In this document: positions 1,539-5,519 of the stretch, one piece after another
Layout: each line of letters opens with the position of its first letter
Position numbering within the stretch: the stretch's first letter is position 1
Origin: Sulfurimonas sp.
GTDB lineage: Bacteria; Campylobacterota; Campylobacteria; Campylobacterales; Sulfurimonadaceae
Reading direction: 5' to 3'
Length of the DNA stretch: 32,048 nt
Assembly (NCBI GenBank): GCA_030247515.1
Contig: JAOTSA010000011.1
Location: 1 to 32,048 of the forward strand
Made by a program: the position numbers and the translations under genes
The notes under the pieces: model-generated
Told to the model about the DNA's origin: nothing
Databases searched by the model: none
What the model saw: the letters and a program-made list of their open reading frames with translations, nothing else

Positions 1539-3800
1539 TTACTTGTTTAGTTTCTGTGTAACAAGTTCATTTACTACACTTGGATTTGCTTTGCCGCCTG
1601 TCATTTTTAGTACTTGACCTACAAAAAAGCCAAGCAGGTTGGTATTTCCTGCTTTAAACTTGGCAACATTATCTTGATTTTTTGCAATTACTTCATCGAT
1701 AATAGGCTCAATTACGCTCGTGTCGCTTATCTGAATAAGTCCTTTAGCTTGAACTATCAGTATAGGGTCTTCTCCGCTTGTAGCCATCTCTTCAAACACT
1801 GACTTGGCGATTTTGTTTGAGATAGTACCATCATCAATCATTTTAACAAGTTCGGCTATCTGGGATGGAGTAAACTTTAGTTCACTGGATTGTTTCTCTT
1901 TGAGTTCTCTTGCTACTTCATTTGCTACGATGTTAGCGATAGTTATAGGGGAGTTGTGAAGCGAGAGAGTATCTTCATAGAAAGATGAGAGTTTTTCATC
2001 TCTGGCTAAAATATCAGCAAGCATACTGTTTAGTCCAAGTTCATTGGTGTATCTGTTAAACAGCGACTGCTCTGTTTCACTCATAGCTTCAGTTTTACCG
2101 TCAATCTGAACTTTTTTATCTTCGACTCTCTCTGTCTTTGCGCTACTTTTTTCTAAGTTGTTTTTTTTGCCCCAAGACTCTTTAAGCCCTACGATTTTGT
2201 TAAAAACTGGTTTTGCATCTGTATAGTCAATGGAATCAGCGTAAAAATATCCATGTCTTTCAAACTGAAATCTAACATCAGGCTTCTCTGTTACAACAGC
2301 AGGTTCAATAAGCGCATTTTTTATGATTTTTAAAGAGTCAGGATTGAGATCTTCTATGTTTTGTGGGTTTTCACAAGCATAGAGCCTCTCATAGAGTCTT
2401 ACCTCTACTTGCTTGGCAGACGCAGCGTCAACCCATTGGATAGCACTTTTGACTTTTATGCCGCTTGTGTCTTGTCCGCTTTTAGAGTTGGGATGGTACT
2501 CTGCTATTATCTCGGTTATATTGCCACTCTCATCTTTTTTAACCTCTTTGCACATGATGATATAGGCATGTTTAAGACGCACAGGCTGCTCGGATGTAAG
2601 ACGGAAGTAGCCTTTTGGAGGGTTTTCATCAAAATCATCACGCTCAATATATATCTCTTTAGAAAAAGGAATCTTTCTTGACCCCTCTTTTGGTATATCA
2701 TCAGGAAAGTATGAGGCGTCAAGCTCTTCACTGCCCTCATAGTTCTCTATAGTTACTTTTAGAGGGTCAAGTACACTCATCACACGAGGTACTTTTGTGT
2801 TGAGATCATCTCTGATACAAAACTCAAGTTGCGAGACATCAACAGTGGAGTTTGCTTTTGCTATGCCGATTTGATCACAAAAGTTTAAAATGGATTCGGG
2901 TGTATAACCTCTTCTTCTAAGCCCCGCAATAGTAGGAAGGCGTGGGTCATCCCATCCGCTTACTCTTTTTTCATTGACCAACTCCAGAAGTTTTCTTTTG
3001 CTCATAACGGTATAGTTGATTCCAAGTCTTGCAAACTCATGTTGGTAAGGGCGGGGCGGTTGGAGTCCAAGCGTCTCTAGTACCCAGTCATAGATATCAC
3101 GGTTATTTTCAAACTCTAACGTACAGATAGAGTGAGTAATACCTTCAATATAATCAGAGAGACAGTGACCAAAGTCATACATAGGATAAATCGCCCACTT
3201 GTCCCCTGCTCTATAGTGATGTGCATGGCGTATGCGGTACAAAAGCGGATCACGCATCTTCATATTTGCAGCGGACATATCTATCTTGGCACGAAGAACA
3301 TGCGCACCGTCTGGAAACTCGCCGTTTTTCATTCTCTCTAAAAGGTCTAGGTTCTCTTCTACGCTGCGATTTGCATATTCACTGCAACGCCCAGCTTCTG
3401 TAACAGTACCACGGTACTCTCTCATCGTCTCTTCATCCAAACTGTCAACATAAGCTTTGCCCATCTTGACAAGCTCTACAGCATACTCGTAAAGTTTGTC
3501 GAAATAATCAGATGTATAGCGCACATCGCCATCCCACTTAAATCCAAGCCACTCAACAGCATCTTTAAGTGCTTCAACATATCTTGTGTCCTCTGTAGTC
3601 GGGTTCGTATCGTCCATCCTAAGGTTACAGTGACCGTTATAATCACGAGCAATACCGAAATTGATAGCGATAGATTTGGCGTGTCCGATGTGAGGAAAGC
3701 CGTTTGGCTCAGGAGGAAATCTTGTGATAATATTTTTGTATTTGCCTGCTTTTAGGTCTTTTTCAACTATTGTGCGTAAAAAATCTTTGTGTTCACTCAT
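1539..3800 (-). CDS. glnS: Glutaminyl-tRNA synthetase fused to a GatB/YqeY tail domain
   Basis: The enzyme charges tRNA-Gln with glutamine in the cytosol. The class I HIGH motif is at residues 37-40 (FPPEPNGFPHIGH), and the KMSKS equivalent is VMSKRK near residue 268. The anticodon-binding beta-barrels run to about residue 555. A charged linker follows, then a tail from about 585 to 753 that matches the GatB C-terminal/YqeY domain (DDGTISNKIAKSVFEEM, GFFVGQVLKMTGGKANP). The total of 753 residues compares with about 550 for ordinary GlnRS. Such fusions are known, for example in Deinococcus, and the tail is thought to help hold tRNA-Gln. Many Campylobacterota lack GlnRS and use GluRS2 plus GatCAB, so this gene was probably acquired. 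The ATG at 3800 has an AAAGG site 12 bases upstream. Confidence 0.95.
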   Translation of the reverse strand: MSEHKDFLRTIVEKDLKAGKYKNIITRFPPEPNGFPHIGHAKSIAINFGIARDYNGHCNLRMDDTNPTTEDTRYVEALKDAVEWLGFKWDGDVRYTSDYFDKLYEYAVELVKMGKAYVDSLDEETMREYRGTVTEAGRCSEYANRSVEENLDLLERMKNGEFPDGAHVLRAKIDMSAANMKMRDPLLYRIRHAHHYRAGDKWAIYPMYDFGHCLSDYIEGITHSICTLEFENNRDIYDWVLETLGLQPPRPYQHEFARLGINYTVMSKRKLLELVNEKRVSGWDDPRLPTIAGLRRRGYTPESILNFCDQIGIAKANSTVDVSQLEFCIRDDLNTKVPRVMSVLDPLKVTIENYEGSEELDASYFPDDIPKEGSRKIPFSKEIYIERDDFDENPPKGYFRLTSEQPVRLKHAYIIMCKEVKKDESGNITEIIAEYHPNSKSGQDTSGIKVKSAIQWVDAASAKQVEVRLYERLYACENPQNIEDLNPDSLKIIKNALIEPAVVTEKPDVRFQFERHGYFYADSIDYTDAKPVFNKIVGLKESWGKKNNLEKSSAKTERVEDKKVQIDGKTEAMSETEQSLFNRYTNELGLNSMLADILARDEKLSSFYEDTLSLHNSPITIANIVANEVARELKEKQSSELKFTPSQIAELVKMIDDGTISNKIAKSVFEEMATSGEDPILIVQAKGLIQISDTSVIEPIIDEVIAKNQDNVAKFKAGNTNLLGFFVGQVLKMTGGKANPSVVNELVTQKLNK

Positions 3801-3830
3801 TGTTTGTCAAACCTTTTTATTGATGTTACG

Positions 3831-3858
3831 CACTAAAACGAACTCGTCCGTTTTAGTG
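3831..3858. repeat. 10-bp inverted repeat in the glnS leader region
   Basis: cactaaaacg (3831-3840) pairs with cgttttagtg (3849-3858) around an 8-base loop. It is one of three hairpins in a row in the space between the two synthetase genes. The sequence has the look of a dispersed palindromic element, though no second copy lies in this window. Confidence 0.6.
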
Positions 3859-3860
3859 GC

Positions 3861-3876
3861 AGGGACTAAAGTCCCT
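3861..3876. repeat. 6-bp hairpin in the glnS leader region
   Basis: agggac and gtccct pair around the loop taaa. It sits 2 bases from the preceding hairpin, so the two together look like a single composite palindromic element. Confidence 0.5.
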
Positions 3877-3893
3877 ACAACCCCCTAAAGCTA

Positions 3894-3911
3894 CGAAAAA
3901 CAAGTTTTTCG
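3894..3911. repeat. 8-bp hairpin in the glnS leader region
   Basis: cgaaaaac (3894-3901) and gtttttcg (3904-3911) form a perfect short stem with a 2-base centre. On the + strand the T-run lies inside the stem, not after it, so it is not a standard terminator. Confidence 0.5.
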
Positions 3912-3946
3912 AGATTTATAGAGTCAGCTTTTTAATTTTAAATAGT

Positions 3947-3986
3947 ATTCTATCAAATCAGAGCTTTAGCTAAAACTTGATAGAAT
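3947..3986. promoter_or_regulatory. Symmetric palindrome carrying back-to-back -10-like boxes
   Basis: attctatcaa (3947-3956) and ttgatagaat (3977-3986) are a perfect 10-bp inverted repeat around a 20-base centre that itself contains agctttagct. Each arm ends in TAGAAT reading outward: the right arm is a -10 candidate for the GluRS2-like gene, giving a start near 3993, and the left arm is one for glnS. A closer glnS alternative is TATAAA on the minus strand at 3920-3915. The arrangement would suit a divergent promoter pair under one symmetric operator. That function is inferred. Confidence 0.4.
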
Positions 3987-4014
3987 CGCGAAATCAGATT
4001 ATACAGGAATAGAA

Positions 4015-5235
4015 ATGCTAAGATTTGCGTTTAGTCCAAATGGCGATATGAGCATTGGCGATTTAAGAGTTGCCCTACTTAATTATATTGTCTCAAAGCA
4101 GAGAAGTGAAGGCTTAATTGTTCGCATAGAAGATTTGGATAAAGAGAGAAGTATAGAGCAAAAAGAGCAAGAGATGCTTGGCATTTTGGGACTTTTTGGC
4201 ATTGAATACTCTCATGTTGTCCATCAAAGCCAAAATTTCCGTTTTCATGCAGCGATGGCACTACAGCTTTTGCTTGAAAAGAGAGCTTTCAACTGTTTTT
4301 GCTCACATGAATGGCTTGAAAAAAAAAGAGAAGAAGCCAAAAGCAACAACGAACTATACAGATATGATGATGCATGTGCTTCCTTGCCTGATGAACTTGT
4401 AATCGACAACGAAAATCCATTTACTGTGAGAATAAAAAAGTCGCAAGAGCCTAATGCAGAGAGTTTTACCATAATGACTGAGGATAAGAGACCAACTTAC
4501 AGCTTTGCCTGCGGGATTGATGATATGCTCGGCGATATATCTTTAGTCATCCGTGATGAAGAGCATATAGACGATGCACCGAAAGAGGATTGGATTCGAA
4601 CATCGCTTGGATATGAAAAGAAAATCGAATATGCCCATCTTCCTGCTATGCAAGATGGTACTTCAAGCGTAAAGTGGCTTCTTGAAGAGGGATTTTTACC
4701 ATCAGCAATTGCAAATTATTTAATATCAACTACCAATAAGCCACCAAAAGAGATATTTACCATGCAAGAAGCCGTAGAGTGGTTTAGCTTGGAAAATATA
4801 TCCAAATCCCCTGCCCGCTTTGATATCGACATACTCAAACATATTAACAGAGAACATCTCATGATGCTTGACGCCAAAGAGCTATCACGCTATGTAGGTT
4901 TTGCAGATGTTGAGATAGGAGAGCTTGCAAAAGTCTATCTTAAAGAGGCGAGTACAACAAAAGAGCTTAGAAGCAAGGTGGGTGCTATTTTTGCACCAAA
5001 AGAGATTCCAGAGGAACTCAAAGAGTCTGCAACGGTGATTGCTTCTATCATCAAAAAAGCACCCTACTTTGATAGATATGAAGAGTTTGAAAATCATATC
5101 ATGCAGGAGTCTGGTATCAAAGGTGAAAATCTTTTAAAATCACTTAGGCTTCTTTTGATGGGCGTGGAAGATGGTTCAGATATCGTTGCTGTTTATAAGT
5201 GCATCAAAAATTATATAGGAGAGATTGTAAAATGA
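4015..5235 (+). CDS. GluRS2-like protein lacking the HIGH and KMSKS motifs
   Basis: The 406 residues align by eye with the Helicobacter/Campylobacter GluRS2 type, which normally attaches Glu to tRNA-Gln. Recognisable segments are MLRFAFSPNGDM, LIVRIEDLDKERS, RPTYSFACGIDD, ISLVIRDEEHIDD and SSVKWLLEEGFLPSAIANYL. Both ATP-binding signatures are gone. The HIGH position reads S13-I-G-D16. The KMSKS loop is deleted: LPAMQDG (209-215) runs straight into TSSVKW (216-221). Glu-pocket elements (RIED, VIR) and the helical anticodon-binding domain remain. The frame is intact, with an AGGA ribosome site and an ATGA-coupled downstream gene, so it is expressed as a protein. It probably does not aminoacylate. 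It may be a decaying relic made redundant by the neighbouring GlnRS, or a re-used tRNA-binding protein. Confidence 0.85.
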   Translation: MLRFAFSPNGDMSIGDLRVALLNYIVSKQRSEGLIVRIEDLDKERSIEQKEQEMLGILGLFGIEYSHVVHQSQNFRFHAAMALQLLLEKRAFNCFCSHEWLEKKREEAKSNNELYRYDDACASLPDELVIDNENPFTVRIKKSQEPNAESFTIMTEDKRPTYSFACGIDDMLGDISLVIRDEEHIDDAPKEDWIRTSLGYEKKIEYAHLPAMQDGTSSVKWLLEEGFLPSAIANYLISTTNKPPKEIFTMQEAVEWFSLENISKSPARFDIDILKHINREHLMMLDAKELSRYVGFADVEIGELAKVYLKEASTTKELRSKVGAIFAPKEIPEELKESATVIASIIKKAPYFDRYEEFENHIMQESGIKGENLLKSLRLLLMGVEDGSDIVAVYKCIKNYIGEIVK

Positions 5236-5519
5236 GCATCTTAGTGGAAATCATACAAGGGCTAGGCTCTATAGTTCTTAGCATTATCAATGTTTATATA
5301 TGGGTGATTATCATAGCGGCACTGCTTAGTTTTGTAAACCCAGACCCGTTCAATCCTATAGTTCAGTTTTTATACAGAATCACAAACCCTGCCTACACGC
5401 TTGTCAGAAGATTTGTGAGAACGAACTTTAATGGTTTGGATTTGGCACCGCTTATCATAGTTGTGGTGCTTCAGGTAGTTGTGGTCGTTTTTGGTGCTTT
5501 TTTGCGTGCTTTAAATTAG
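5232..5519 (+). CDS. YggT family integral membrane protein
   Basis: The protein has 95 residues with the YggT layout: a hydrophobic segment at about 10-32, a PDPFNPIVQFLYRITNP loop, an LVRRFVR basic patch and a second hydrophobic segment near the C-terminus. Members of this family sit in the inner membrane and have been linked to osmotic and potassium homeostasis and, in some lineages, to division or thylakoid biogenesis. I infer nothing more specific here. The ATG at 5232 overlaps the upstream stop in an ATGA and has AGGAG at 5217-5221, so I prefer it to the upstream in-frame start at 5199. It is translationally coupled to the GluRS2-like gene. Confidence 0.85.
   Translation: MSILVEIIQGLGSIVLSIINVYIWVIIIAALLSFVNPDPFNPIVQFLYRITNPAYTLVRRFVRTNFNGLDLAPLIIVVVLQVVVVVFGAFLRALN

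Follow-up and report, generated by a model that had tools for sequence, protein, structure and literature searches.

A GluRS2 without HIGH and KMSKS motifs beside GlnRS in Sulfurimonas, probably retained as a non-catalytic protein

The window analysed here, 32,048 nt of a contig from Sulfurimonas sp., contains a gene for a second glutamyl-tRNA synthetase (GluRS2) which lacks both catalytic motifs and lies beside the gene for an intact GlnRS. Comparison of the sequences suggests that this GluRS2 probably no longer aminoacylates and that selection maintains it as a protein without catalysis. Copies without functional motifs are called dead in the following; we infer the absence of activity from the sequence. 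The motifs appear to have been lost many times while the gene stays intact and selected in most species, and therefore the dead GluRS2 probably has a second role.

The dead GluRS2 gene and its neighbours

The dead gene (psGluRS2; 4015..5235, + strand) codes for 406 aa and is open from an ATG start to a TGA stop, with AGGA upstream of the start, which agrees with the first-pass annotation of a whole frame with a ribosome site. The annotation as a GluRS2-type synthetase from end to end also holds: TIGR00464 (gltX_bact) matches residues 2-398 with 278 bits, slightly below its 290-bit cut-off, PF00749 matches with 1.5e-41, and the profile search gave no family fitting better than bacterial GluRS. 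An AlphaFold2 model (mean pLDDT 90) has the GluRS fold, and its top PDB matches in Foldseek are all GluRS with TM about 0.8. The protein thus has the full-length homology and the fold of a bacterial GluRS and lacks the HIGH and KMSKS motifs. The closest named record is from Sulfurimonas sp. UBA6792 (89% identical). It should be noted, as a warning for annotation, that dead GluRS2 genes score near the models for glutamate--tRNA ligase and yet are without catalytic motifs.

At the HIGH position (4051..4062, + strand) an alignment to Sulfurimonas GluRS2 confirms the reading S13-I-G-D16, where the norm in the genus is H-I-G-N; the change of N16 to D recurs among GlnRS-carrying species. The KMSKS loop is deleted as had been claimed, but where it had first been placed between residues 215 and 216, the alignment puts the gap between P210 and S217, around Q213/D214 (4642..4665, + strand), where ten residues containing KKMSKR are gone. 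The deletion is no sequencing error, because the identical ten residues are missing in G094, G039 and G151, whose copies are 84-89% identical to this one. The acceptor-binding (connective) domain (4225..4476, + strand), for which we assume the naming used for E. coli YadB/GluRS, conserves the zinc ligands C94, C96, Y117 and C121, which correspond to the Cys-Cys-Tyr-Cys site for zinc in E. coli YadB. Along with the helices that come later it is the best conserved region of the protein, and a helical segment, residues 281-324 (ELSRYVGFAD...; 4855..4986, + strand), is conserved to an equal degree.

Upstream, across an intergenic region (3801..4014), a divergent gene codes for a GlnRS-YqeY fusion of 753 aa (1539..3800, - strand) with its catalytic motifs PHIGH and MSKR intact. 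A promoter scan found no more than in shuffled sequences, and an Rfam search had no hit. In G267, G066 and G378 (L297, L298, L300) and their relatives of family f20 the GlnRS gene lies directly before the dead GluRS2, a few nt apart and in the same orientation, an arrangement that looks like an operon. Downstream, the start of yggT (5232..5519, + strand) overlaps the gltX2 stop in ATGA (5232..5235), the coupling noticed earlier, and yggT follows gltX2 directly in every Sulfurimonas genome read that has downstream sequence. Because it adjoins intact and dead copies alike, the coupling is ancestral.

The first-pass annotation proposed a search for a second, complete GluRS and for gatCAB. In this genome there is a single complete GluRS1, its motifs intact, and one copy of GatB, the subunit of GatCAB that was searched. 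A profile search of the same genome gave no AsnRS over the cut-off, and since AsnRS is missing, Asn-tRNAAsn presumably still depends on GatCAB.

Motif loss and GlnRS in Sulfurimonas

A total of 135 Sulfurimonas genomes was searched for GluRS2 and GlnRS, and 110 GluRS2 loci were read. GlnRS is present in 84 of the 135. Where it was not detected, 33 of 36 GluRS2 copies have both HIGN and KMSK and are 432 aa long. The three loop-less exceptions (G018, G107, G029) are all in fragmented genomes, in which G018 and G107 break at a contig end beside the gene and G029 is 79% complete; absence of GlnRS from a draft genome can be a gap. Where GlnRS is present, KMSKS is lost or broken in 70 of 74 genomes. 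KMSK is still present in the other four, which are G164, with both GluRS2 motifs intact and GlnRS on another contig, G119, with HIGD, G142, which reads KMSKVD, and G041. Damaged but undeleted loops are found in G047, G083, G150 and G153, and the loop is gone altogether in about 94% of dead copies.

In phylogenetically independent pairs the motif loss goes with GlnRS in 8 cases and against it in none (median p 0.008). With the tree of a single gene, GluRS1, in place of a species tree, at least 17 changes in GlnRS presence and 15 in the GluRS2 state are counted. If all dead copies are made to descend from one origin the log-likelihood is 75 lower, but the AU test does not reject this (p 0.134). 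The differently damaged, undeleted loops in separate lineages, together with the GluRS1 tree and the independent pairs, indicate that motif loss has been repeated, with intermediates still living.

This supports the earlier proposal that the direct route to Gln-tRNAGln replaces the indirect one, and the loss of motifs recurs across Sulfurimonas and other families and is thus broader than first supposed. The switch of route can be seen in stages, from both enzymes intact (G164) through damaged loops (G047, G083, G150, G153) to loop deletion, and provides a large set of parallel cases in nature in which the use of a synthetase without charging can be studied. The proposal that an active GluRS2 is harmful beside GlnRS finds no support here: in G164, G119 and G041 GlnRS occurs together with a KMSKR-bearing GluRS2, and because GatB remains, Glu-tRNAGln could still be amidated.

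One GlnRS-carrying Sulfurimonas, G116 (L266), has an unrelated ORF before mobB and neither GluRS2 nor YggT was found there, possibly a true loss by rearrangement. A co-loss of GluRS2 and yggT in G025 and G160 was discarded, as their contigs end at the locus.

Selection on the dead copies

dN/dS was estimated with the simple NG86 method. The closest dead sister pairs in Sulfurimonas have values of 0.11-0.32, and over 25 disjoint dead pairs the value is 0.205, versus 0.086 over 14 pairs of intact copies. No internal stop occurs in any of the listed Sulfurimonas copies, where simulated neutral evolution produces about two stops by 0.05 changes per site and about eight by 0.2. Since dead sisters are at 0.11-0.32 compared with about 0.09 in active copies, most dead copies do not appear to be decaying. 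The first-pass annotation had named dN/dS near 1 with frequent frameshifts as the sign of simple decay; what is found is an intact frame under purifying selection. The dead Sulfurimonas copies are in this respect unlike pseudogenes and like a non-catalytic synthetase paralogue, with motifs absent and the sequence under selection.

The constraint is unevenly distributed. In the catalytic halves dN/dS is 0.19-0.20 in dead versus 0.04-0.06 in intact copies, a three- to fivefold rise, whereas the rise is only 1.3- to 1.5-fold in the acceptor-binding domain (0.144 versus 0.093) and in the helices of residues 307-350 in G152 numbering (0.140 versus 0.104). C94, C96, Y117 and C121 are invariant in dead copies. 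The C-terminal part, on the anticodon side, is relaxed most (0.278, a twofold rise), which weakens a role specific for tRNA-Gln. The catalytic core has thus lost its constraint, whereas the acceptor-binding domain and the helices that follow have retained theirs.

A conserved stretch of 18 nt

Within the dead gene the 18 nt at 4711..4728 (+ strand; codons 259-264 in G152 numbering) are conserved at the nucleotide level. The consensus in dead Sulfurimonas copies is TCAAATTATTTAATATCA, and the window reads GCAAATTATTTAATATCA; the consensus is matched in full by 38 of 72 dead copies and within two mismatches by 61 of 72. By parsimony L264 has changed to Ser about 15 times, and each of the 60 Ser codons is TCA, against a background of 24%; intact copies have a close version of the stretch with TTA. 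No further occurrence was found in 586 kb of the same loci or in other families, and no pairing partner above shuffles inside the same gene. A DNA or RNA signal overlapping gltX2 is likely at this place, and that part of the conservation lies in the nucleotides counts against explaining it by a role of the protein.

GluRS2 outside the genus

In a wider sample of 299 Campylobacterales genomes GlnRS of the same type occurs in 93, from 29 of 81 genera. About 50 more GluRS2 copies from GlnRS-carrying genomes of several families, a set biased by being chosen mostly for low score with about ten higher-scoring copies left out, include none with KMSKR intact, and nearly all their frames are open. Dead copies in these families have dN/dS of 0.10-0.33.

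In 17 GlnRS-carrying genomes of other genera only a GluRS1-like match was obtained, and GluRS2 has apparently been lost. G170 (L333), which has GlnRS, carries a GluRS2 with one internal TAG and one TAA and is at a true pseudogene stage. Loss and decay of GluRS2 thus also occur outside Sulfurimonas, and from these 17 genomes and the broken copy it follows that the role of the dead GluRS2 is dispensable. Two further loci may be mentioned. G172 (L334), where no GlnRS was found, has an intact HIGN and its GluRS2 in two overlapping frames with one TAG, either a frameshift error or a real break. In G277 (L352) and G400 (L353) GluRS2 is shortened to about 279 aa and most of the anticodon-binding part is gone; dN/dS of this pair is 0.136.

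Recombination and a model for the conversion

For the most part the GluRS2 of G039 shares 86-93% identity with the dead copies of G000 and G151, and from the gltX2/yggT border onward its locus is 86-95% identical to that of G152, which has no GlnRS, an intact GluRS2 and a GluRS1 96% identical to that of G039. G004 has a breakpoint inside gltX2 at about nt 750, with the upstream part like the dead copies of G005 and G012 and the downstream part like the intact copy of G102. (The breakpoint loci are L037/L066 in G039 and L039/L069 in G004.) Because of these switches in identity we conclude from the alignments that in two species GlnRS was imported over the resident locus jointly with a dead gltX2, of which at least the 5' part came along. 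We infer the direction of import from G152, which groups with other intact species in both trees.

The model which we propose assumes that the Sulfurimonas ancestor made Gln-tRNAGln with GluRS2 and GatCAB. A GlnRS-YqeY gene would then arrive, here just upstream of gltX2 and divergent from it, and the active site of GluRS2 would be lost by point changes such as N16D, by damage to KMSKS and finally by deletion of the loop. Purifying selection would persist, now acting chiefly on the domain that binds the acceptor and on the later helices, and the dead GluRS2 would therefore most likely go on binding a tRNA, or else a partner to which tRNA is bound, for example GatCAB. The block of glnS and dead gltX2 would move between species by homologous recombination, and its import would install GlnRS and overwrite the active gltX2 in one step. 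That the dead protein still binds tRNA is perhaps so; a role for its N-terminal half, plausibly in binding the tRNA acceptor, would fit the regional constraint, the invariant zinc ligands and the constrained, truncated copies of G277 and G400. The most far-reaching form of the model, with repeated parallel conversions to a non-catalytic tRNA-binding factor and a spreading block that switches the tRNA-Gln route in a single recombination, is put forward tentatively. If true, a new factor has arisen several times over, both inside one genus and elsewhere among the families of Campylobacterales.

Alternative explanations

Slow decay postulates a relic gene that has no present function and is gradually being lost. 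The internal stops of G170, the 17 genomes without GluRS2 and a constraint 2-3 times weaker than in active copies agree with this, but pairs in which both members are already motif-less are still at 0.11-0.32, the Sulfurimonas copies listed have no stops, conservation is concentrated in particular domains and even the 279-aa copies are constrained; we consider slow decay quite unlikely. That the frame is kept for reasons in cis, either translational coupling to yggT or the putative signal at 4711..4728, has in its favour the ATGA overlap, the constant position before yggT, and the 18-nt conservation with its recurrent L264S, always TCA. Coupling requires an open frame and not conserved amino acids, however, the constraint on the protein spans several domains, and dead copies of other families are constrained without the 18-nt stretch, which makes this explanation an unlikely one. 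Retention of a non-catalytic protein is preferred to both.

Residual chemistry without HIGH and KMSKS, or activity in trans with GluRS1 or GlnRS, could be suggested by R3, S7 and E39 of the glutamate pocket, which remain in most copies, and by Y162 and R180, also present in the window; we take the assignment of these residues from T. thermophilus GluRS. It is very unlikely, since dead copies lack H13, N16 and H200 of the ATP side or vary at these positions, the whole KMSKS loop is missing and R196 is kept in only 48%. The published view is the reverse of ours: a survey of ten genomes found GlnRS scattered and GluRS2 in all, and suggested that the epsilonproteobacterial GlnRS, as the newcomer, is possibly non-functional because GluRS2 is always present and would still serve tRNAGln (PMC3927822). 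A literature search on dead GluRS2 in GlnRS-carrying epsilonproteobacteria found only this paper, and the passages of it considered here do not mention motif loss in GluRS2. We give it hardly any credence, as GlnRS has HIGH and MSKR intact in 64 of 64 sequences examined and is under strong selection (dN/dS 0.04-0.18), and the GluRS2 motifs are lost or broken in 70 of 74 GlnRS-carrying genomes. The intact motifs reverse the published guess, and GlnRS is predicted to be the working enzyme in these species.

Comparison with known systems

The dead GluRS2 is of the same epsilonproteobacterial type as the tRNAGln-specific GluRS2 of Helicobacter pylori, and its active relatives carry HIGN, the motif of that type (PMC3927822). 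It differs in having no HIGH or KMSKS and in standing beside GlnRS, so that charging of tRNAGln is not expected. The second GluRS of Thermotoga maritima is likewise described as inactive; in the account of PMC3927822 it came from a duplication of the catalytic domain, keeps HIGG and is non-functional. PDB titles list T. maritima GluRS with a glutamyl-AMP analogue and in the glutamine transamidosome (3afh, 3al0). HisZ, a HisRS paralogue without adenylation activity which is a regulatory subunit of HisG (PMC9437257), is a precedent for a synthetase relative kept for regulation; the likeness is in the way of working, as HisZ is class II with a known partner whereas the dead GluRS2 is class I with many parallel origins. 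GluQ-RS (YadB) is an active GluRS paralogue without an anticodon domain, whereas the dead GluRS2 has kept its C-terminal domain and lost the motifs, and scores 93 bits against the 277-bit cut-off of the NCBIfam model for GluQ-RS. The two have the Cys-Cys-Tyr-Cys zinc pattern in common.
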